A program made the position numbers and the translations under genes. Positions 3,282 to 19,807 of a stretch of 20,142 bases of DNA are shown one piece after another (within the stretch, counting starts at the first letter, position 1; each line of letters starts with the position of its first letter). A model generated the notes under the pieces. It ran no database searches. It was not told the origin of the DNA and saw nothing but the letters and a program-made list of their open reading frames with translations. This DNA comes from a virus: positions 1-20,142 of the IMG/VR virus record IMGVR_UViG_3300027607_000013. One strand, given 5' to 3'.

Positions 3282-4577
3282 ATGGCCACGGCTGAACCCT
3301 ATTTTGGTCCGGAGATTGTCGATCGCCCGATTGGGTCTCAGACGGTCCGGGAACAAAAGGCTGCCACAGCGCTGATTATCGGGACTGCACCGATACACCT
3401 TGTGCATGCCGATGGGGCGGCGCGCGCGCCGTACATCAACACCAAAGTCATCGTGCGCGATCGTAAAGAAATCGCACAGTGGTTCGGCCCGGAAACGGAC
3501 GGATACGATTTGCCGTCACGCCTGGACGCGATCTTTGACCAGGCGGAGGATTCCGGAATTGGAACGCTGGTTGTCGTCAATGTCTTCGATCCTGACGTGC
3601 ATAAGGATGTTGGGAATGCGCCCGATCCAAGCCAGGTTGCGAACACGGATATCATCGGCACATTCGATGCGTCTGGGAAAGCCTCCGGGTTGAAGCTCGC
3701 ATACGAGTGTTTCCAGGCTTTTGGCTGGTTCCCGAAGAACCTGGACGCCGGGTTCTTCTCAAACGATCCGGGCGTGCGCGCCGAACTGGAGGTTATCCAG
3801 AACCGCATCCGGGCGCGCTCCGGCTTGAATGCGCCGATCGGCGTGACCAGGCAGGATGTGATTGAAGCGCGCGGCCCGACCGGCGCGTTCGATTTCCAGA
3901 CCAATTCGCGCCGCTTCACGCTGCATTGGCCGTCCATGTTGAAGATTTCCGAGACAACCGGAAACGAGATCAACATCCCGTATTCATCGGTTCACCTCGG
4001 CGTCTGGCTCCGGTCGATCATTGAATATGGCTATCACCATTCGCCGTCGAACCGGCCGATATACGGGATGGAGGATTCCGCACAGGAGGTTCATTACATC
4101 CCCGGCGACCATCAATCCGACCCGCAATTGTTGCGAGGCGCCGGGGTGGTGACGGTTGAGGAACGGTGGGGCAAGGGCATCCACACATCCGGCAACCGAT
4201 CGGCGGCTTACCCGACCGACACGGATTATCGGAACTTCAATCACGTCCAGTACACCACGGACATGATTGATGAGGCCGTCCTGTTTTATCTGGACGATTG
4301 GAAGGACCGCAACGCCTCAGCCGCCGCGATCGAATTCATCGAAGAGCGGATCAACCGTTACGTGAAGTCGAAAACAACCGGTGATGATCCGGCGCTTTAT
4401 GACGGGCGGTTCTGGTTCGACCGCACGCAAACGACGCCGGAAAGCGTCGCCGAGGGCCAGTTCTTCTATCAGCTCGACATCATGCCGGTTTCCGTCATGG
4501 AGCGCATCACGGTCGAACGCGGCATCAACATTGAACTGGTTCGCAACCCGCTCGGGTTGGCGAATTCAGCAGTTTAA
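3282..4577 (+). CDS. FI: Contractile tail sheath protein (P2 gpFI-like)
   Basis: The product has 431 residues; P2 FI has about 396. The N-terminus (FGPEIVDRPIGSQTVREQKAA, then TALIIGTAP) is the typical start of FI/Mu gpL sheaths, where the first strand weaves into neighbouring subunits. Residues about 75-100 include LPSRLDAIFDQAEDSGIGTLVVVNVFDP, the conserved 'AL..iF.qg....vvVvrV' block. Near the C-terminus the protein has RGAGVVTVEERWGKGIHTSGNRSAAYP and FNHVQYTTDMIDEAVLFYLDDW, both characteristic of the contractile sheath core. It ends with the VMERITVERGINIELV strand. The sheath contracts around the tube to drive genome delivery. Its TAA (4575-4577) lies inside TAAGGAGG, the ribosome-binding site of the tube gene, so expression of the two is tightly coupled. 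Confidence 0.93.
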   Translation: MATAEPYFGPEIVDRPIGSQTVREQKAATALIIGTAPIHLVHADGAARAPYINTKVIVRDRKEIAQWFGPETDGYDLPSRLDAIFDQAEDSGIGTLVVVNVFDPDVHKDVGNAPDPSQVANTDIIGTFDASGKASGLKLAYECFQAFGWFPKNLDAGFFSNDPGVRAELEVIQNRIRARSGLNAPIGVTRQDVIEARGPTGAFDFQTNSRRFTLHWPSMLKISETTGNEINIPYSSVHLGVWLRSIIEYGYHHSPSNRPIYGMEDSAQEVHYIPGDHQSDPQLLRGAGVVTVEERWGKGIHTSGNRSAAYPTDTDYRNFNHVQYTTDMIDEAVLFYLDDWKDRNASAAAIEFIEERINRYVKSKTTGDDPALYDGRFWFDRTQTTPESVAEGQFFYQLDIMPVSVMERITVERGINIELVRNPLGLANSAV

Positions 4578-5150: not shown

Positions 5151-5480
5151 ATGTCTGACATAGAGATTGACGGCGGTGTGATCGCCAAACTCAAAGCGCA
5201 CAAGGACACCAATTCGGGCTTTGATACGATCACGCTGCCGGAAACAGGCGTTATGTTTGCCTATCCGCAGTTCCGCAACCACGGCAAGCTTGCCGCAGCG
5301 TCGCGTGCTGCCAAGGGCGATAGCGCAAAAGCGCAAACCATGTACATCGTGCGGAACTGCAAATTCGACGGCGAGACCATCACCGTCAATGACTTTAACG
5401 AGCTTATCCCTGTCGCCGACTCCACGCTGATCGTCAAAACCCTGTTTGGCGATGAAGAGGGTGACGACGCGGGAAACTGA
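5151..5480 (+). CDS. E: Tail assembly chaperone (P2 gpE-like), 0-frame product
   Basis: This acidic 109-residue protein is encoded between the tube and tape-measure genes, with AAAGGGG 10-16 nt before the ATG. The C-terminal half carries the motif NCKFDGETITVNDFNELIPVADSTLIVKTLF (about 71-101), which is the recognisable gpE-type core. It ends in a very acidic tail. In P2-like and most other tailed phages this gene makes two proteins, E and a longer frameshifted one, which together coat and fold the tape measure during tail assembly. Here the last two sense codons (GGA AAC) belong to a canonical -1 slippery heptamer placed directly before the TGA, so most ribosomes would make this short form. 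The protein is not expected in the finished virion. Confidence 0.85.
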   Translation: MSDIEIDGGVIAKLKAHKDTNSGFDTITLPETGVMFAYPQFRNHGKLAAASRAAKGDSAKAQTMYIVRNCKFDGETITVNDFNELIPVADSTLIVKTLFGDEEGDDAGN

Positions 5481-5665
5481 CCGGCGGCGTCCGCCTATCG
5501 ACGCCGCTTGACCACGCCTACATGATCCGGCGCGGTTGGAGCCACGAAGCCCTTTGCGCCATGGACGAAGACGAGTTTCTGGATTGGCTCGACGTGACAA
5601 TTGAATTGGACGTCGAATTTGCCGAGGCGCAAGAGCGGGCAGCCGAGGAAGCGCAAACCGGCTAA
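5151..5665 (+). CDS. Tail assembly chaperone E+E' fusion made by -1 ribosomal frameshift, join(5151..5477,5477..5665)
   Basis: Reading GGGAAAC at 5471-5477 and slipping back one base continues translation at CTG 5477. The ribosome then runs in the new frame to the TAA at 5663-5665. The extension is 62 residues long (beginning LTGGVRLSTPLDHAYMIRR), giving a 171-residue fusion. Its content is that of P2 E'-type domains: a short hydrophobic and basic start, then RRGWSHEALCAMDEDEFLDWLDV and an acidic helix EFAEAQERAAEEAQTG. The extension has no start codon before the ATG at 5522 and no separate ribosome-binding site, which supports production by frameshift. The fusion is thought to bind the tape measure and recruit tube subunits. 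The tape-measure gene starts 25 nt downstream. Confidence 0.85.
5471..5507 (+). promoter_or_regulatory. Programmed -1 frameshift signal: GGGAAAC plus downstream stem-loop
   Basis: G GGA AAC (5471-5477) fits the X-XXY-YYZ rule in the E reading frame and is followed immediately by TGA. After a spacer of about 6 nt comes GCGGCGTC (5484-5491), loop CGCCTATC, then GACGCCGC (5500-5507). This is a perfect 8-bp GC-rich stem, extendable by a G-U pair. Slippery site, spacer length and stem are all in the range known for -1 frameshifting. Lambda uses the closely related GGGAAAG for the equivalent gene pair. Confidence 0.88.
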
Positions 5666-5689: not shown

Positions 5690-8521
5690 ATGAAAGTCGC
5701 GTTGATATTCGAAGCGATCGACCGCGCCAGCCGGGTCATGAAAACTGTCACCGGCAACCTGACCAAGATGAGCCAGGCGGCAGGGCGGCAACTCCAGAAA
5801 GTCACGGGTGCCGGCATCCACGCTGCCAAGCGCGGCGCGCAAGCGGCGGCGGTGGCGACGGCGACGTTATTCACGGTCGCGACCACACAGGCCATTGGTT
5901 TTGAAAGCGCGATGGCCGACGTGCAAAAGGTGGTCGATTTCCCGACGCCGGCCGCATATTCCGAATTGAGCGCTGACCTTCTCAAACTCTCGACTCGAAT
6001 TCCTGTAACCGCAACGGGTTTGGCCGAAATCACGGCCGAGGCCGGTGCGGCCGGTATCAAGCTTTCCGAGCTTGGCGGGTTCGTCGAATTGACGGCCAAA
6101 AGCGCCGTCGCCTTTGATATGACAGCACAAGCGGCGGGCGATGCGTTTGCGAAAATCAAAAACGTCTACGGCTTGACACAGATCCGGCTTTCAGAGACGG
6201 CCGATTCCATCAATCACTTGTCAGATAACATGGCGTCGAAAGCGCCACAGATCATAGACTTCCTGATGCGGGCGGGTGGTGCCGCGCCCATCTTGAAAGC
6301 GACGACGGAAGAAATGGCCGCGCTTGGTTCGGCGATGATCGCAACCGGGACCACGTCGGAAACCGCCGCACGCGGTGTTACGGCGCTGGCAACCAGGCTC
6401 GCTGTTGGTGGTCCAAAGATATCCGGCGCTTTCAAGGACATTGGCCTTGACCTCGGCAAATTCAATAAACTTATGGCCGAGGATACCGGTGCGGCGTTCG
6501 AGCTATTGTTCAAGGTGGTTGGTGAATCTGAGAAAGGGGTATCCGCCCTCAAAGACCTGGTCGGCCAGGACTTCGTTGACGACTTCCTGAAACTGGCCAA
6601 CCGAACCGAGCTGGTCGCCGATGCGTTCGGCCATGTGGCGGACAAAGCCAGGATGGCCGGATCAGTTCAAAGGGAATTCGACGCGCGCGCCGCGACCACG
6701 GCCAATTCCCTTGTCCTGTTCAAGAACAACCTATCGAAACTTTCCATTGAGTTCGGAAGCCGGCTCTTGCCGATGCTGAATTCCGGTCTTGGCGCGGTCA
6801 ACGAGTTTATGTCGACCCTGGACGATCGCGTGACGATTTTTCATCGGCTTGACCAGGGTGTGCGCGGGTTCATGGATGGCCTTGGAGGGTTCGAGGCGGG
6901 CGGGTTCGTTCAAGGCTTGAAAGATTATGTGTTTGGCGTTGCCGACGCGGCCAATGCGACAGCCACTCTGGAGGAAACTTTCGCCGGGGCCAGGTCGATC
7001 GGCGAGTCCTTGCGTGCCAGTGTTGATGTCATTTCCGAAGGCATCGAAAAGCTAAAAGCAGTCGGCCAGGATATCGGCTCCGGGTTTTCCGGTTGGGTCG
7101 ACCCGATCACGGAATCCCTCGGCAAGCTTGGGCCGATCGCCAACAGTATCGGCGGGTCGCTATCTCGAATTTGGGAGAGTTTTTCCAGCCTCCTGGACAT
7201 GGCCGGCGAAAGTGCGGGCTTTACGAATTTCGCTCAAATGCTTGGATCGCTTGCCGGCGCTGGCCTTTCCCTTTTTGCTGACACAGTTGTTGTGGCCGCA
7301 AAAGGGTTGGATCTTCTGCTCAAGGCCATTGCCTGGCTGTTTGAATTCGCGGCCGGCAAGAAAACCATCGATTGGAACGCGATCATTCCGGAACTGCCGG
7401 AAGGCTGGTTTGATTTCAGCGGAATTGAACAATCCATATCCGATTTCTTTTCCCTGGATTGGTTGCCGGATTGGTCCTGGCCGGAGTTCAGTTTGCCTGA
7501 CCTGGAACCGGTAATGAACGCAATTGACCATTTCCATTCCGGGGCCTGGTTGCCAGAGTGGACCTGGCCGGACATCGCGTTGCCGGATCTGCCCGACCTT
7601 GAACCGGCAATGCAGGCGATTGACCATTTCTTTTCCGGCGACTGGTTGCCGGATTGGACCTGGCCGGCGATCCCGTTACCTGAACTGCCCGACCTGTCCG
7701 CCCTGGACGAATGGCTTGATCCGATCGCTGACAAGATCACCGGCATATTCGCCGACGTATCAAAGTCCGTTAGCGATGGCATCAACACTGTTACGGCGTT
7801 GTTCTCGACACGCAGTCCGGTTGAGATTGCCGCGACCGACCCCGCGTCGATCGAGCGGGCAACGGCGGCGGCAAGCGGGCTGGAAACGGCTTTGAAAGGC
7901 GCGGCCGCCGTCGATGTGTCCCCGGCACTTGGACAATTGCACGCGATCGAAAACACGGCCAATCGGATTCCGGGCGTCGTCACGGCAATGGTCGGTAAAA
8001 TCCGATCGATCCTGGCCGCCGCCAATTTCCGGACACAGGGAATGCGGATGATGGACACGCTGGCCGCTGGCATCCGTGCGCGGGCCGTCGCCGTCACCAA
8101 TGAGATCCGCAAAGTCACACAAGCTGTCCGCGATCACCTACCATCGTCGCCTGCAAAGGTCGGGCCGCTTTCGGACCTCCACCGCTTGAAGTTCATGGAA
8201 ACCATTGCCGGCTCAATCCGGCCCGCGCCGCTGGTCAACGCAATGCGCGCCGCGTCGATCGCCGGCCTTGCCGCCATGCAGGTCGGAGCGCCGGCCGGTG
8301 CCGAGCCCGATGGCACGCTCCAGTCCCACGGCCGTACGGCCGGCATCCGCGCGGCCGCGACAGCTCCAATTAGCATAGACGGGTCCATGCATGTGGAGAT
8401 TCACGGCAACGGCGCGGAAGACCTGCGCGGCCAGTTGGATCAATTGCTCCAGGAGCATCGGCACAAACTGACGGATTTGGTTTTGACCGAATTGGCGCGG
8501 CGCGATCGGAGGCGGCACTGA
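5690..8521 (+). CDS. T: Tail tape measure protein (P2 gpT-like, TP901 core)
   Basis: The 943-residue product is the longest in the window, as expected for the protein that sets tail length. GGGAGG (5679-5684) precedes the ATG. Residues about 60-320 hold the TP901-type core: AIGFESAMADVQKVVDFP, then LSTRIPVTATGLAEITAEAGAAGI, TAKSAVAFDMTAQAAGDAF and TSETAARGVTALATRL. A hydrophobic stretch near residues 520-555 (SLFADTVVVAAKGLDLLLKAIAWLFEF) could cross a membrane. Residues about 585-675 form three Trp/Pro-rich tandem repeats, an unusual feature described separately. The region from about 810 contains DHLPSSPAKVGPLSDLHRL, a signature of this family's C-terminal part. In the mature virion it lies inside the tube and is ejected at infection. 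Its TGA overlaps the ATG of U by one base. Confidence 0.93.
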   Translation: MKVALIFEAIDRASRVMKTVTGNLTKMSQAAGRQLQKVTGAGIHAAKRGAQAAAVATATLFTVATTQAIGFESAMADVQKVVDFPTPAAYSELSADLLKLSTRIPVTATGLAEITAEAGAAGIKLSELGGFVELTAKSAVAFDMTAQAAGDAFAKIKNVYGLTQIRLSETADSINHLSDNMASKAPQIIDFLMRAGGAAPILKATTEEMAALGSAMIATGTTSETAARGVTALATRLAVGGPKISGAFKDIGLDLGKFNKLMAEDTGAAFELLFKVVGESEKGVSALKDLVGQDFVDDFLKLANRTELVADAFGHVADKARMAGSVQREFDARAATTANSLVLFKNNLSKLSIEFGSRLLPMLNSGLGAVNEFMSTLDDRVTIFHRLDQGVRGFMDGLGGFEAGGFVQGLKDYVFGVADAANATATLEETFAGARSIGESLRASVDVISEGIEKLKAVGQDIGSGFSGWVDPITESLGKLGPIANSIGGSLSRIWESFSSLLDMAGESAGFTNFAQMLGSLAGAGLSLFADTVVVAAKGLDLLLKAIAWLFEFAAGKKTIDWNAIIPELPEGWFDFSGIEQSISDFFSLDWLPDWSWPEFSLPDLEPVMNAIDHFHSGAWLPEWTWPDIALPDLPDLEPAMQAIDHFFSGDWLPDWTWPAIPLPELPDLSALDEWLDPIADKITGIFADVSKSVSDGINTVTALFSTRSPVEIAATDPASIERATAAASGLETALKGAAAVDVSPALGQLHAIENTANRIPGVVTAMVGKIRSILAAANFRTQGMRMMDTLAAGIRARAVAVTNEIRKVTQAVRDHLPSSPAKVGPLSDLHRLKFMETIAGSIRPAPLVNAMRAASIAGLAAMQVGAPAGAEPDGTLQSHGRTAGIRAAATAPISIDGSMHVEIHGNGAEDLRGQLDQLLQEHRHKLTDLVLTELARRDRRRH
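7442..7714 (+). repeat. Three tandem Trp/Pro-rich repeats inside the tape measure gene
   Basis: Copies start at 7442, 7526 and 7622 and encode 28, 32 and 31 residues. The shared pattern is D-[HF]-F-x-S-[GL]-x-W-L-P-[DE]-W-[ST]-W-P-x-x-x-L-P-[DE]-L-(P-D-L)-E-P-x-M-x-A-I. Each copy carries three tryptophans in the W-L-P-x-W-x-W-P block. Copies 2 and 3 are closest to each other also at the DNA level, which suggests recent duplication. The last copy loses the E-P-x-M-x-A-I end. A three-residue P-D-L insertion separates copy 1 from the others. Confidence 0.85.
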
Positions 8522-11398: not shown

Positions 11399-11896
11399 TT
11401 GTCTGACCGCATCATCGAAGGTGACAAGAACCCGCAATTCAAAACCGGCATCGTCAAGGAATACGATCCGAAAACCGGGCTGCACCGGGTCGAGTTTCCA
11501 GACGAGGACGAGGTTGTTTCTTATTGGATTGGCGCATCCTCGCAAGGAAGCCAGGACAACAAGGAAGTCGACCCATTTGCCGTTGGTGAAATGGTCGATA
11601 TCCAATTTGATTGGCGCGGAGAAAACGGCCGCATTACCGGAGCGGCTTTCAACCAGGTCGACACGCCGCCGTGGCAAGATCCGAACAAGCGCGGCCGGCA
11701 ATATTCAGATGGCGCGGAACTGACCCACAATACCGAAACCCACACCACGGAAGCGACGGCGCAAAACGTCAACCTCGGGCCGGAAGGGCGTACACCGTCA
11801 TCCGGGATCGGACACCTGGTGCATGTCACCTATGGGTCATCGGCCGGCCTGCATCCGATCGTTACCGGGTCGCCGGCCGTGAACATCAAGGAGTGA
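11399..11896 (+). CDS. V: Baseplate assembly protein V, central spike (P2 gpV-like)
   Basis: The 165-residue product uses a TTG start: AGGGAG at about 11386-11391 is 7 nt upstream, and the sequence after it (MSDRIIEGDKNPQFKTG) gives a family-like beginning. Residues about 15-95 form the OB-type domain, with KTGIVKEYDPKTGLHRVEFPDEDEVVSYWIG and later VGEMVDIQFDWRGENGRITGAAFN. That matches the 'G.V...d.....vrV.....d....wlp......' signature of V proteins. The C-terminal region (HNTETHTTEATAQNVN and onward) fits a short repetitive beta spike, though the usual metal-binding HxH tip motif is not obvious. V forms the membrane-piercing spike below the hub. It is encoded after the cargo gene rather than next to W, unlike P2. 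Confidence 0.8.
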   Translation: MSDRIIEGDKNPQFKTGIVKEYDPKTGLHRVEFPDEDEVVSYWIGASSQGSQDNKEVDPFAVGEMVDIQFDWRGENGRITGAAFNQVDTPPWQDPNKRGRQYSDGAELTHNTETHTTEATAQNVNLGPEGRTPSSGIGHLVHVTYGSSAGLHPIVTGSPAVNIKE

Positions 11897-11900
11897 GGCT

Positions 11901-12146
11901 GTGGCCAACAATCCTGCTTGCCCTATCATGACAGCCAATTGCCCACGCGATGATTGCCGCTTGGGCATCAACGCTTGTTCGGTTCGACCAGCCGATGAAA
12001 CCCGGCCGGCCGCGTCCTGTTATGATTATGAGTGTCGGACTTGCGGGCAAAAATGGTGCGTGGCGTTTCCGCAGATTCAGCCGGAGTTTGATAAGAATGG
12101 GGTGATTGTTTCTCCGACACCGATTGAAATTGCGGTGGCTGAATAG
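11901..12146 (+). CDS. Small cysteine-rich (zinc-ribbon-like) protein
   Basis: A GTG start with AAGGAG (11888-11893) 7 nt upstream, inside the end of V, gives an 81-residue product. It has eight cysteines: C7, C14, C19 and C26 in the first part, then C40, C45, C48 and C53. The YECRTCGQKWC segment is zinc-ribbon-like, with a C-x-x-C knuckle at 45-48. The protein has no membrane segment and ends in a Pro/Ile-rich tail. I cannot assign a family. Although phage Mu Com is also a small zinc protein, the pattern here differs and Com is found elsewhere in this window (17367). Being coupled to V, it would be made late. A nucleic-acid-binding or virion-associated metal protein are both possible. Confidence 0.6.
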   Translation: MANNPACPIMTANCPRDDCRLGINACSVRPADETRPAASCYDYECRTCGQKWCVAFPQIQPEFDKNGVIVSPTPIEIAVAE

Positions 12147-12194
12147 TCGCATTCCCATTAAAACGGTTTTTTGCTAATATTTTCTGGTTGATTG

Positions 12195-12214
12195 ATGAGG
12201 ATACAATTCCTCAT
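12195..12214 (+). repeat. Short hairpin downstream of the cysteine-rich gene
   Basis: ATGAGGA (12195-12201) and TCCTCAT (12208-12214) form a perfect 7-bp stem with loop TACAAT. No U-run follows. It lies 49 nt after the stop at 12146 and may stabilise the end of the upstream mRNA. Confidence 0.4.
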
Positions 12215-12256
12215 GGCTTGATTGAGATTTGGCCGACCAATCTACGTTCGAAAGGT

Positions 12257-12286
12257 GGACCGCCGCGTTGACGCGGCGATCCTTTT
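12257..12286. terminator. Terminator-like hairpin, possibly bidirectional, downstream of the minus-strand peptide gene
   Basis: On the plus strand GGA-C-CGCCGCG, loop TTGA, CGCGGCG-A-TCC is followed by TTTT, with one C-A mismatch. On the minus strand the same bases form an uninterrupted 11-bp stem using a U-G pair (GGAUCGCCGCG / CGCGGCGGUCC), followed by ACCTTT. The stem is therefore better for minus-strand transcription and the U-run better for plus-strand transcription. It lies 19 nt beyond the stop codon of the minus-strand peptide gene, the expected place for that gene's terminator. Confidence 0.55.
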
Positions 12287-12293
12287 CGCAACG

Positions 12294-12335
12294 GTGTCAC
12301 GTCGCTACGTGGTAAGAAGCTTGGCGACGTGACAC
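12294..12335 (-). repeat. 12-bp perfect inverted repeat overlapping the end of the small peptide gene
   Basis: GTGTCACGTCGC (12294-12305) and GCGACGTGACAC (12324-12335) are perfect reverse complements around an 18-nt loop. The structure takes in the last ten or so codons and the stop of the minus-strand ORF. Such stable 3' hairpins are common in type I toxin mRNAs, where they protect the message. It may equally act as part of a terminator with the hairpin at 12257-12286. Confidence 0.65.
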
Positions 12336-12400
12336 ACTGCCAATGCCGCCTGCAGCATGGCCAGTCCAATTTGTAATCCGACAAGTGCTATATCCAGCAT
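12305..12400 (-). CDS. Small hydrophobic peptide, candidate TisB-like type I toxin
   Basis: The ATG at 12398-12400 (minus strand) opens 31 codons ending in TAG at 12305-12307. The peptide is almost wholly hydrophobic (begins MLDIALVGLQIGLAM, ends HVAKLLTT) and would form one membrane helix. Polar residues fall at D3, Q10, Q17 and H24, exactly seven apart, making a polar stripe. Escherichia coli TisB, as I recall it, has D5, K12, Q19 and K26 at the same spacing. An ungapped alignment with offset 2 gives about 10 identities in 27, including the DIA, LQ and AV pairs. A 13-nt Shine-Dalgarno lies 7 nt or so upstream. TisB inserts in the inner membrane and lowers proton motive force. The gene runs opposite to the tail operon, so late transcripts are antisense to it. 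Function is inferred; an unrelated membrane peptide remains possible. Confidence 0.7.
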   Translation of the reverse strand: MLDIALVGLQIGLAMLQAALAVCHVAKLLTT

Positions 12401-12407
12401 ACGTGCT

Positions 12408-12420
12408 TCACCTCCTTTCT
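12408..12420 (-). promoter_or_regulatory. Exceptionally strong Shine-Dalgarno of the small peptide gene
   Basis: Read on the minus strand the bases are AGAAAGGAGGTGA, ending 7 nt before the ATG. As I know it, alphaproteobacterial 16S rRNA ends in UCACCUCCUUUCU, which would pair with all 13 bases. No other gene in the window has such a site. This decides that the 31-codon ORF is a real gene. Read on the plus strand the same bases are a copy of the 16S 3' tail. Confidence 0.8.
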
Positions 12421-12569
12421 TTTGCCTAAACGAAACGTTAACAGACTACTCATTCAATGGAATATGTTTGTGGCACCTGCGAGGATTTGCCCTACTCTCG
12501 TCCTTTGTTGGCTCGATTGAATATTGATGACTTTTTGGTTTTGAATTCTTCTGATCTATCTGTAATTAC

Positions 12570-12581
12570 AGCGTGTTTTCC
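12570..12581. promoter_or_regulatory. 12-bp perfect palindrome, possible operator
   Basis: CTGTAATTACAG is a perfect palindrome in the gene-free stretch between the small peptide gene and W. It lies about 70 nt before a -10-like hexamer on the plus strand and about 170 nt upstream of the peptide start on the minus strand. A dimeric regulator could bind it, but no protein partner is visible in the window. Confidence 0.35.
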
Positions 12582-12647
12582 CTTGCTTGTTTTTCCGTGT
12601 CCTGGTAGCGGCGGGTGGCCATCTGGTGTTCGGTTCCCGCGATTACC

Positions 12648-12653
12648 TATACT
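12648..12653 (+). promoter_or_regulatory. Candidate -10 element upstream of W
   Basis: TATACT matches the TATAAT consensus in five of six positions and lies 55 nt before the W ATG. No good -35 hexamer is present 16-18 nt upstream. Mu late promoters also have a -10 but a poor -35 because they need an activator. A new promoter here would let W, J, I and the fibre genes escape termination at 12257-12286. Evidence is weak. Confidence 0.25.
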
Positions 12654-12702
12654 TTGAACCCCTTTATTGGCTTTCAGCCCGCGCGCGCGCGAAAACCGCG
12701 CC

Positions 12703-13104
12703 ATGCAAGCGAACCGGCACAATCTGAAATCATTGCATTGGCAAATGGCCGTCACCTTCGACGGGCCATCCGATGGCCATGTCGTCGAGAAGATCGCCGA
12801 CCTTGAGCTTGGCATTCAAAACATCATCCTGACGCCAAAGGGTTCGGTTCCGCTCAATCCGGAAAAAGGATGCGACCTCTACCCGTACATTGACCGGGTA
12901 CCGGCCGAAGGCATCCCGAACATGACGCGGGAAATCTTCGACGCGCTCCGGATCTGGTGCACGCGCATCATCGTCGACCGGGTAGAAGTCGAGCAAATCG
13001 CCTTCCATCACTTCAAGTTCCCGGTGTTCTGGCGACCGATTGAGAGTGTCAATGACGAGCTAATCCGCACCGTTGTCGATTACCAGCCGGAGGCGGCGGT
13101 ATGA
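12703..13104 (+). CDS. W: Baseplate assembly protein W (P2 gpW / T4 gp25-like)
   Basis: The gp25-type core is clear: D-L-E-L-G-I-Q-N-I-I-L-T-P-K-G-S-V-P-L-N-P-E-K-G-C-D-L-Y-P-Y-I-D, at about residues 27-58, matches the 'l...I...L.t..GerPl.P.fG.dl...id' signature. The stretch RVEVEQIAFHHFKFPVFWR is consistent with the closing strands. The ATG at 12703 gives 133 residues, somewhat longer than P2 W (about 115). A TTG at 12667 would add 12 residues. Neither start has a visible Shine-Dalgarno, which is odd compared with the rest of the operon and may reflect the insertion just upstream. W is a wedge component of the baseplate. Its stop overlaps J by 4 nt (ATGA at 13101-13104). Confidence 0.8.
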   Translation: MQANRHNLKSLHWQMAVTFDGPSDGHVVEKIADLELGIQNIILTPKGSVPLNPEKGCDLYPYIDRVPAEGIPNMTREIFDALRIWCTRIIVDRVEVEQIAFHHFKFPVFWRPIESVNDELIRTVVDYQPEAAV

Positions 13105-17366: not shown

Positions 17367-17555
17367 ATGGAGTCGATACGGTGTTCGAAATGCGCAAGAC
17401 AATTGGCGCGACACGCGCCAGGCGCAATCCGGGACGTGCTGGAAATCAAGTGTCCACGCTGTTCCACAATCAATTCATTAAGGCCTTTAGAGCCAAAACC
17501 CGAGCGCCGAACCGAGCGTCAACAGGACGTTCGAAATGTCGGAAAATACCCCTAA
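17367..17555 (+). CDS. com: Com-like zinc-finger translational activator
   Basis: The frame is open from 17337, but the ATG at 17367 gives MESIRCSKC..., which aligns from the first residue with Mu Com (MKSIRCKNC...). The 62-residue product has C6-x-x-C9 and C29-P-R-C32, with the shared E-I-x-C-P-R-C segment, then a basic tail (PKPERRTERQQ). In Mu, Com is a small zinc-binding protein that binds mom mRNA and opens a hairpin hiding the mom ribosome-binding site. Here com overlaps the start of a DNA methyltransferase gene by 20 nt, just as Mu com overlaps mom. A fitting hairpin lies at 17513-17533, inside the end of com. The com ribosome-binding site is weak (AGG at 17358-17360). Confidence 0.8.
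   Translation: MESIRCSKCARQLARHAPGAIRDVLEIKCPRCSTINSLRPLEPKPERRTERQQDVRNVGKYP
17513..17533 (+). promoter_or_regulatory. Hairpin that buries the methyltransferase ribosome-binding site
   Basis: CGAGCGTC (17513-17520), loop AACAG, GACGTTCG (17526-17533) forms 8 base pairs including one G-U. The only Shine-Dalgarno candidate, AGGA at 17524-17527, lies across the loop and 3' arm, and the ATG begins two nt after the stem. Translation would start poorly until the stem is opened, which is the task Com performs for mom in Mu. The regulatory link is inferred. Confidence 0.7.
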
Positions 17556-18291
17556 ACTGCCATCGCACATCCGCAAGGAAGTGATCGGAAACTGCATACT
17601 CTATCAGGGCGACTGCCTGGAGATTCTGCCACTGATCGACCAGGTCGATTGCGTTCTCACGGATCCGCCCTATTCAAGCGGCGCGCTGCACAGTTCCGGC
17701 CGTGCCGCGCCAACGTCACAGAAATACCAATCGTCAGAAAACGCCGGTATCTACCCGGAGTTTCTCGGCGACAACAGGGATCAGCGAAGCCAACTCCTTT
17801 GGTGTTCTCTTTGGCTGTCGGCCGCGTTGCGAAAGACGCGGCCGGGTGGTCTTTGCATGATGTTCTCTGATTGGCGGCAACTACCTATCTCGACAGACGC
17901 GGTCCAGGTCGGCGGCTGGATCTGGCGCGGAATCACGGTTTGGGACAAAACCCAAAGCGTCCGGCCGAGAAAGGGCGGGTTTCGGAGCCAGGCGGAATAT
18001 GTAGTCTGGGCAAGCAAGGGGCCGATGAACACGCCGGACAGATATGCGCCTGGGCTGTTTAGGCATTCAGTTCAATCGGAGAAGAAGCACCATATTGCAG
18101 GAAAGCCGGTACGGTTGGCGGTCGACCTTCTTCAACTATCGACAAGCGGAGATACGGTGTTGGATCCGTTTATGGGCTCTGGGACGACTGGATTGGCCTG
18201 TGTTGAGCTTGGCCGTAATTTTGTCGGAGTCGAGTTGGATCCGGCTTATTTTGAAATCGCATGCGAGAGAATGCGCAAAGCGATTCGATGA
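17536..18291 (+). CDS. Beta-class site-specific DNA methyltransferase (N6-adenine or N4-cytosine)
   Basis: The 251-residue protein has motif IV, DPPY, at 43-46 and the AdoMet-binding motif D-P-F-M-G-S-G-T-T-G at 210-219, followed by G-V-E-L-D-P. That order, catalytic motif first and AdoMet motif last, defines the beta class of amino-methyltransferases. DPPY favours N6-adenine, but N4-cytosine cannot be excluded. The target-recognition part is the central region (about 55-190), which has Arg/Lys-rich stretches such as SVRPRKGGFRSQAEYVVWASKG. No partner restriction gene of an obvious matching type is adjacent. It replaces mom in the Mu-like right-end module and probably marks phage DNA against host restriction late in infection. 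Expression appears to be held down by the 17513-17533 hairpin and raised by Com. Confidence 0.9.
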   Translation: MSENTPKLPSHIRKEVIGNCILYQGDCLEILPLIDQVDCVLTDPPYSSGALHSSGRAAPTSQKYQSSENAGIYPEFLGDNRDQRSQLLWCSLWLSAALRKTRPGGLCMMFSDWRQLPISTDAVQVGGWIWRGITVWDKTQSVRPRKGGFRSQAEYVVWASKGPMNTPDRYAPGLFRHSVQSEKKHHIAGKPVRLAVDLLQLSTSGDTVLDPFMGSGTTGLACVELGRNFVGVELDPAYFEIACERMRKAIR

Positions 18292-18320
18292 CCATTAACT
18301 GTCTGCGTGGACCCAACTTA

Positions 18321-18359
18321 TTGCACGATGACTGGATTAGTCGGTGCTAATAGGTGCAA
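18321..18359. repeat. Cluster of short repeats between the methyltransferase and HNH genes
   Basis: TTGCAC (18321-18326) and GTGCAA (18354-18359) are reverse complements. Between them ATTAG (18336-18340) and CTAAT (18347-18351) form a second inverted pair. The parts TTAGTCGGTGC and CTAATAGGTGC are also imperfect direct repeats (8 of 11 bases). Such a cluster could be transposase-binding sites at a phage end or a regulator site for the HNH gene. The 127-nt gap that holds it has no other feature. Confidence 0.4.
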
Positions 18360-18418
18360 AGTGTGGCCAACACGTTCCTAAAACTTGAATTCTTAAATTT
18401 TTGCGGCAAGATGCCGTT

Positions 18419-19807
18419 ATGGGACTTGCAGACATAACCGCCGGAGCCATTGTTGCCGCATGTAAAGAATTTGATGAAGTCGGAAAGACCAGGTTTCTAA
18501 AAAAATACGGCTTTAAATCGTCGCGCACCTACAAGCTGCGCCGCAATGGCAAATTTTATGACTCCAAACCGATAGTCGGCGCGGCGCATGGGTACGTTGG
18601 GTCAGGTTATGAACCTCTCCGAGCGCAAGAGTTTTCCGGCGGGCACCAGCAGGCCGTTCGCGTTCTGGAGAACCTCGAATTTGAAGTGATCGAAAACCCT
18701 CCACCAACACGAAATCCAGATTGGTCACGAGATGAGCTAATCCTCGCTACGGAATTTTACCTGAGCCACGCGCCAAGCATTCCCGGCAAAACTACTCGCA
18801 AGTTGACGGATTTGGCCGATGAAATTCGCGCCGCAGCTACTTTGCAGGGTTTGGAGGGCAACGACACGTTTCGCAATCCTAACGGCGTCTATATGAAGTT
18901 GATGGAACTCCGGAAATATGACGAAACTTACACGGGTGTAGGTTTGGGGCACGAGCGACTTCGCGAAGTTGAGCTTGAGGTTTGGAGCCTGCCGGAAGTC
19001 GAACTTCTGCTCGCCGCGCGGGACGTCCGAATAAGAATCGCGAAATTTTTTGAAAACGGAGGTGACGTTTCAAAAATTGAACGCTCATTGCCAAAATCTG
19101 AGGTCCTTCAAGAATTGCTTGCAAGCGATGACAAATTGGACAACCGCCTTGCAGATGTGCTCATCGATTGGCAGGAAACGAAACGCGACATTGGGCGGCA
19201 CGCGGGACTTGGTCGGGAGCCGGATAAAATCAAAAACCATGGTGCCGAGTTTGTCATTGAACAGCGAGTGCGCGCTCGTGCAAGCGGCTTTGATGAAGTG
19301 TCTGCTTCTGGCAAGAGTTATGAACAAATCGTTGTAGATCACCCCGATCGCTTTCCAGACGATGTGGTGAAGATTGCCAAAGAACGCATCGTTCAATTTG
19401 AACTAGCCAAGCCAACGGCTGATCGGTTGGAGATTGAGAAAAAGACAAAGGGCATTCTCGACCAACCGGATATGATTAATGAGCCGCCTGCCGGAAATCC
19501 AACACCAAAAAAGGAGTTGGCGACGGGGATCGTATTCGTTCGTGATCCCCGGGTCGTCGCATACACGCAGAAACGAGCGAAGGGCGTTTGTGAGCTTTGT
19601 CGAGCGGAAGCGCCATTCAAGAGATCAGACGGTACGCCTTATCTTGAAACACATCATGTAATTCCGCTGGCCGAGGGTGGCCCGGACACTCCCAGCAACT
19701 GTGTTGCTATCTGCCCCAACTGCCATCGTGCGGTGCATTCAGCATCTAACCGCCAGAAACTTACAGAAAAATTGAAAGTTGCGATCTCTGATCCAGCTGC
19801 CCCATAA
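18419..19807 (+). CDS. HNH endonuclease, ScoMcrA-like, probable modification-dependent (type IV) restriction enzyme
   Basis: A TTG at 18401 opens the frame, but the ATG at 18419 gives MGLADITAGAIV, the normal start for this family, and 462 residues. Residues about 1-95 match the N-terminal head domain of ScoMcrA-type proteins: AIVAACKEFDEVGKTRFLKKYGF, then Y-D-S-K-P-I-V-G-A-A-H-G-Y and FSGGHQQAVRVLENLEFEV. A second module (about 102-190) carries NPDWSRDELILATEFYL and NPNGVYMKLMELRKYD, common in HNH restriction proteins. The C-terminal HNH domain has C391-x-x-C394, H412-H413, N427, C432-x-x-C435 and H440. ScoMcrA cuts phosphorothioate or methylated DNA; whether the sulfur-binding part is present here is unclear. 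Composition is more A/T-rich than in the phage genes. It may belong to the phage or to the host next to it. Confidence 0.8.
   Translation: MGLADITAGAIVAACKEFDEVGKTRFLKKYGFKSSRTYKLRRNGKFYDSKPIVGAAHGYVGSGYEPLRAQEFSGGHQQAVRVLENLEFEVIENPPPTRNPDWSRDELILATEFYLSHAPSIPGKTTRKLTDLADEIRAAATLQGLEGNDTFRNPNGVYMKLMELRKYDETYTGVGLGHERLREVELEVWSLPEVELLLAARDVRIRIAKFFENGGDVSKIERSLPKSEVLQELLASDDKLDNRLADVLIDWQETKRDIGRHAGLGREPDKIKNHGAEFVIEQRVRARASGFDEVSASGKSYEQIVVDHPDRFPDDVVKIAKERIVQFELAKPTADRLEIEKKTKGILDQPDMINEPPAGNPTPKKELATGIVFVRDPRVVAYTQKRAKGVCELCRAEAPFKRSDGTPYLETHHVIPLAEGGPDTPSNCVAICPNCHRAVHSASNRQKLTEKLKVAISDPAAP

Follow-up and report, generated by a model that had tools for sequence, protein, structure and literature searches.

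TisB is the closest described system to the locus presented here. It is a peptide of 29 residues encoded by the tisB/istR-1 locus of E. coli (Pfam family PF13939). Its residues K12 and Q19 are essential, and K12 cannot be replaced even by arginine, while Q19 tolerates D as a substitute (PMC11449926). The residues D22 and K26 are of lesser importance (PMC11449926). The charge-zipper model for TisB has been disputed, and the peptide has been reported from Enterobacteriaceae only (PMC11449926). Other small membrane type I toxins are Hok, Fst/Ldr, DinQ, ZorO, and AapA. At the level of the genome, the antiviral hotspots of P2-like phages are comparable, since they combine a fixed genome site with exchangeable cargo genes (PMC9122126).

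We studied a virus record of 20,142 bases, and "the window" refers to this whole stretch of DNA. It presents the gene set of a contractile-tail phage: major head protein, sheath, tape measure, gpU, gpX, gpV, gpW, gpJ, gpI, and tail fibre. Its closest relative with annotation is Rhizobium phage RR1-B, whose gpJ is 44% identical. Between the gpV/PAAR genes and gpW, the window carries a small peptide gene on the minus strand (Table 1). Our best explanation is tentative, with a probability of about 0.45. It consists of a phage "moron" in this slot that encodes a toxin-like membrane peptide.

Table 1. Coordinates of the peptide gene, its signals, and the flanking genes in the window.
Feature	Position	Strand	Remarks
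gpV-like baseplate assembly gene, left flank	11399..11896	plus	
81-aa cysteine-rich orphan gene	11901..12146	plus	occupies the place of the relatives' PAAR spike-tip gene
Accessory-gene slot, from the 81-aa gene to gpW	12147..12702		48% GC, against about 58% around
GC-rich terminator-like hairpin	12257..12282		T-runs of TTTT (plus side) and TTT (minus side)
Perfect 12-bp inverted repeat, 18-nt spacer	12294..12335 (arms 12294-12305 / 12324-12335)		hairpin straddling the ORF end in the minus-strand RNA
Peptide ORF, 31 codons, MLDIALVGLQIGLAMLQAALAVCHVAKLLTT	12305..12400	minus	one predicted transmembrane helix, polar stripe D3/Q10/Q17/H24
Shine-Dalgarno AAGGAGGTGA, 10/10	12408..12417	minus	7 nt before the ATG, read from the sequence
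gpW/gp25 baseplate wedge gene, right flank	12703..13104	plus	ATG 12703 set by the RR1-B alignment

Some further features of the window accompany these genes. At 17536-19807, a DNA methyltransferase gene precedes one for an HNH nuclease (type IV-restriction-like, 468 aa); in RR1-B, a methyltransferase occupies a comparable position. An imperfect palindrome (12672-12695) stands directly before gpW. A tRNA or att site at 12590-12660 was considered and rejected, as no tRNA was found there.

A preliminary description of this DNA had proposed a minus-strand ORF of 31 codons. Its frame and length held when the sequence was read again. The Shine-Dalgarno, called near-perfect there, turned out better, since AAGGAGGTGA matches in all ten bases. 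Among all ORFs of 18-60 aa in the window, only this one has a 10-nt Shine-Dalgarno; the next best has 6. We compared the 556-bp gap with 3000 dinucleotide shuffles of itself. A comparable ORF was defined as an ATG ORF of 20-60 aa, with a Shine-Dalgarno of at least 8 and a 19-residue mean hydropathy of at least 2 (2.08 for the hydrophobic 19-mer of the peptide). None of the shuffles gave one, and a Shine-Dalgarno of at least 8 by itself appeared in 4. This combination of Shine-Dalgarno and ORF lies far beyond chance. We regard the ORF as almost certainly real, and the peptide as probably translated.

The AlphaFold model of the peptide consists of one helix spanning residues 2-30 (pLDDT 90.9). 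The polar residues reported earlier at 3, 10, 17, and 24 are indeed there. More precisely, D3, Q10, Q17, and H24 are the only strongly polar residues at positions 2-26, and they form an exact heptad. The probability of an exact 7-7-7 spacing of four polar residues within 2-26 is 4/12650 (3e-4), for a stripe that was spotted before testing. Likewise, of 97 natural small hydrophobic ORFs that contain at least four polar residues, none shows the same stripe. This stripe is a stronger resemblance to TisB than the identities between the two peptides. In an antiparallel pair of peptides, the geometry would place D3 opposite H24 and Q10 opposite Q17. With the same geometry, D5 and K26 of TisB would oppose each other, as would K12 and Q19.

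The peptide resembles TisB in its length (31 residues against 29), in its single amphipathic helix, and in a polar residue at each seventh position, in a shared register. The preliminary description put the identity at about 10 of 27 ungapped positions, and the tisB of the MG1655 record, our reference sequence, confirms it, with 10 identities in 27 at offset 2. Shuffles of the peptide composition reach this identity count with p = 0.02. When the hydrophobic and polar classes are kept in place, p is 0.05 for the identities and 0.16 for the score. As a natural null, we took 175 small hydrophobic ORFs from the fetched DNA. One of them reaches 10 identities and four an equal Smith-Waterman score to TisB. 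Random peptides of the same pooled composition reach 10 identities in 0.5% of cases. So, the identity is real, yet within the reach of chance for hydrophobic peptides (p about 0.005-0.16, depending on the null), and it is only suggestive.

In the alignment at offset 2, D3, Q17, and K27 match D5, Q19, and K29 of TisB. The peptide thus has a counterpart for the essential Q19, and it joins a short amphipathic membrane helix (2-30, predicted) to a C-terminal positive charge at K27. However, it differs from TisB in having Q10 at the position of K12, L20 for D22, and H24 for K26. The Pfam TisB model (PF13939), a profile search that the preliminary description had suggested, gave no match to the peptide up to E 10, while the E. 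coli TisB control scored 37.4 bits. Across the window, PF13939 also had no match. No LexA control was found either. Within 500 bp upstream of the ORF there is no LexA/SOS box of the form GAAC-N7-GAAC with at most one mismatch. For CTGT-N8-ACAG, the only upstream site has one mismatch, which is the chance level. A search by promoter, terminator, and complementary site found no IstR-like antisense RNA for the peptide gene. Unlike TisB, it is located in a phage. Therefore, the peptide may act like TisB, yet it appears to fall outside the TisB family.

Searches for homologues covered several collections. Neither Pfam nor NCBIfam matched the peptide, and tblastn found no homologue in annotated phages and plasmids. 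It is absent from 12 related phage records (11 related viral contigs and RR1-B). Exact and relaxed codon patterns, scans that reach near matches only, detected no homologue in the IMG/VR viral contigs. An SD-anchored peptide pattern, with the same reach, returned five loci in 84,980 genomes, none of them alphaproteobacterial. The matches of the pattern scans were rejected as homologues. Some are artefacts (out of frame or in repeats) and others longer proteins; the rest are Gram-positive-like peptides in L018 and L019 and one orphan, similar in design but unrelated, from a Desulfobacterales MAG (L024). Within the databases searched, the peptide is an orphan.

Three of these loci present small peptides of their own. 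In L024, MIDILIIVIQFVLVLLDIIKLVID is encoded at 3373-3447 (+) after a perfect 10-nt Shine-Dalgarno, with polar residues at 3, 10, 17, 20, and 24; it has no homologue among 292 genomes of its order. L018, a viral contig, carries several different small hydrophobic ORFs with strong Shine-Dalgarnos, at 1070-1198, 1335-1451, 1888-2025, and 5478-5603. Those of L019 are at 1118-1234, 5264-5332, and 7357-7422. In both, the ORFs resemble Gram-positive type I toxins.

To place the gene in its context, we compared the gpV/PAAR-gpW gap across RR1-B and the 11 related contigs. Among these, L015 differs little from RR1-B, and L016 is almost identical to L017 in the slot region. The gap is nearly empty in four records (111-115 bp in L002, L011, L013, and L015) and measures 289 bp in L016 and L017. 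The remaining six (L007, L008, L009, L010, L012, and L014) have gaps of 1.1-1.5 kb. Each long gap holds one gene of 0.9-1.4 kb, on the minus strand in five of the six, and is AT-richer than its own contig. In L007, L009, L012, and L014, the cargo genes belong to one minus-strand family, whose products have about 310-343 residues and hydrophobic segments at the N-terminus. This family shows the motif NELGDxLAGxxAPxAFxWL, then a coiled-coil-like stretch, and has neither a Pfam nor a PADLOC assignment. L010 carries a SLFN_AlbA_2 protein on the minus strand, and the protein of L008, encoded on the plus strand, begins with a hydrophobic stretch. In L002 (4525-4547), L009 (4525-4547), and L010 (4524-4548), a plus-strand hairpin with a T-run is found about 33 nt before gpW. 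If this hairpin terminates, gpW, J, and I need read-through or another promoter.

From these comparisons, the slot looks like a transcription-unit boundary where accessory genes accumulate, in most cases on the strand opposite to the tail genes. The peptide gene fits this pattern because it is on the minus strand and has 48% GC amid about 58%. It lies between conserved structural genes, is absent or replaced in relatives, and deviates in base composition, as morons do. Most likely, the peptide is a translated "moron" of the slot. We know of no description of the gpV/PAAR-gpW slot of rhizobial contractile-tail phages, and on this evidence its role as an accessory-gene slot in the related rhizobial phages is new here. 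It resembles the hotspots of P2-like phages in its fixed site and exchangeable cargo. It differs in its position between gpV/PAAR and gpW in rhizobial-type phages, and in that PADLOC gave no match for any slot cargo gene of the related contigs.

The peptide gene ends in two hairpins. The 12-bp 3' hairpin of the preliminary description corresponds to an exact repeat. Read as minus-strand RNA, the repeat has its 5' arm within codons 22-26, and the 3' arm starts with the final base of the stop codon. The terminator-like hairpin has the better T-run on the plus strand (TCCTTTTCG), and the minus side has merely CCTTTCG. It is, therefore, at best bidirectional. Between the 81-aa gene and the peptide gene, which converge, it is probably a terminator for both directions. 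No sigma-70-like promoter was found for the peptide gene. Upstream of it, a perfect 12-bp palindrome (CTGTAATTACAG, 12560-12571) might be an operator; chance would give about one per seven such gaps.

The best explanation starts from what the DNA presents: an ORF behind a perfect Shine-Dalgarno, two 3' hairpins, and a slot with mostly opposite-strand genes in relatives. The product is probably a membrane-active toxin-like or exclusion peptide. It may plausibly act as a toxin; in that case, its most likely effect would be to let the membrane potential leak. Transcription of the minus strand would give a short mRNA that stops at the GC-rich hairpin, and translation from the strong Shine-Dalgarno would be efficient. 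The peptide would then enter the inner membrane as one helix and oligomerise through the D3/Q10/Q17/H24 stripe. Such an oligomer would be a leak that lowers the proton-motive force. For the phage, this could mean dormancy of the lysogen, exclusion of other phages, or addiction. Control would probably pass through RNA structure (the start codon in a stem and the pairing of the Shine-Dalgarno with the tail, both predicted) or convergent transcription.

Among the alternatives, a translated but non-toxic membrane peptide survives best, and we consider it somewhat unlikely. It would serve superinfection exclusion or another accessory function, with the stripe binding a membrane partner. The slot cargo of the relatives agrees with this, as it consists of membrane/coiled-coil proteins and a SLFN-AlbA protein. 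Proteins of this kind are often carried by phages. Likewise, no antitoxin RNA was found in the gap, and a harmless peptide makes its absence easier to explain. However, the agreement of the stripe and its register with a known pore-forming toxin exceeds expectation.

A strict type I toxin-antitoxin locus is decidedly less probable. The antisense RNA would be read on the plus strand from about 12283 rightwards, or it would be trans-encoded outside the 20-kb record. The toxin-like peptide and its strong Shine-Dalgarno speak for such a locus. The RNA is also structured (z -3.3 to -4.2), with the start codon inside a predicted stem. Like Hok, Fst/Ldr, DinQ, ZorO, and AapA, the peptide is short and hydrophobic, is positively charged at its C-terminus, and comes from a structured mRNA. 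Nevertheless, it differs from them in lacking a Pfam/NCBIfam match and a detectable antisense RNA. For plus-strand RNA over the ORF, neither promoter nor terminator was found, and the gap has no second complementary site for an antitoxin RNA. Moreover, the low fold energy is due mostly to the two 3' hairpins. These had been taken to add to the look of a type I toxin; both exist, but they are not diagnostic of one. The Shine-Dalgarno is predicted to pair with the 3' tail of the RNA (GAAAGG stretch) with a probability of 0.83-0.98. This pairing was not counted as support, since 14% of shuffled and 26% of U-run control tails pair equally well. A fold-back of the tail in the style of hok/AapA is predicted, yet not above controls.

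It is very unlikely that the region is a non-coding RNA or regulatory region with an incidental ORF. The Caulobacter sRNA CC2171 (RF01867) gives a full-length, sub-threshold match on the minus strand (12256-12427, 24.4 bits, E 0.0019-0.0064), the only Rfam match. The two share a GC-rich terminator and, close to the 5' end, the AAAGGAGGUGA motif. However, the score is far under the gathering score of 75. The middle aligns poorly, and the aligned part is mainly the motif and the terminator. The motif is complementary to the 3' end of 16S rRNA in CC2171 as well. An ORF directly behind a perfect Shine-Dalgarno is also improbable by chance. Separately, CC2171 shares the SD-like motif, and a small peptide may be encoded in this sRNA too.

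The least likely reading is a true distant TisB homologue that arrived in an alphaproteobacterial phage: 10 of 27 ungapped identities and an in-register D, Q, and C-terminal K favour it, but the TisB model is silent, the essential K12 is missing, TisB is known from Enterobacteriaceae only (PMC11449926), and no intermediates were found.

Of the two origins first proposed, a distant relative or a convergent peptide, only the second finds support, and this support concerns the design (single predicted helix, heptad stripe, and the D3/Q17/K27 matches). Since no relative was found and the essential lysine of TisB is missing, the gene appears to be an independent, toxin-like cargo gene and not a TisB. 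A more specific form of the "moron" reading can be stated, although it is unlikely in full. The peptide would be a membrane-depolarising phage peptide that converged on the heptad stripe of TisB. It would be carried as exclusion or dormancy cargo in the variable gpV/PAAR-gpW slot of rhizobial contractile-tail phages.

The peptide would allow the requirements of the TisB stripe to be tested on a natural sequence. It keeps the D, the Q, and the C-terminal K, but a Q stands where TisB has the lysine that is reported to be indispensable. For the rhizobial phages, the slot is a place to seek accessory genes that are still unknown. Annotation is nearly blind to very short membrane toxins, and a Shine-Dalgarno together with a stripe in a phage cargo slot hints at a way of finding more of them.
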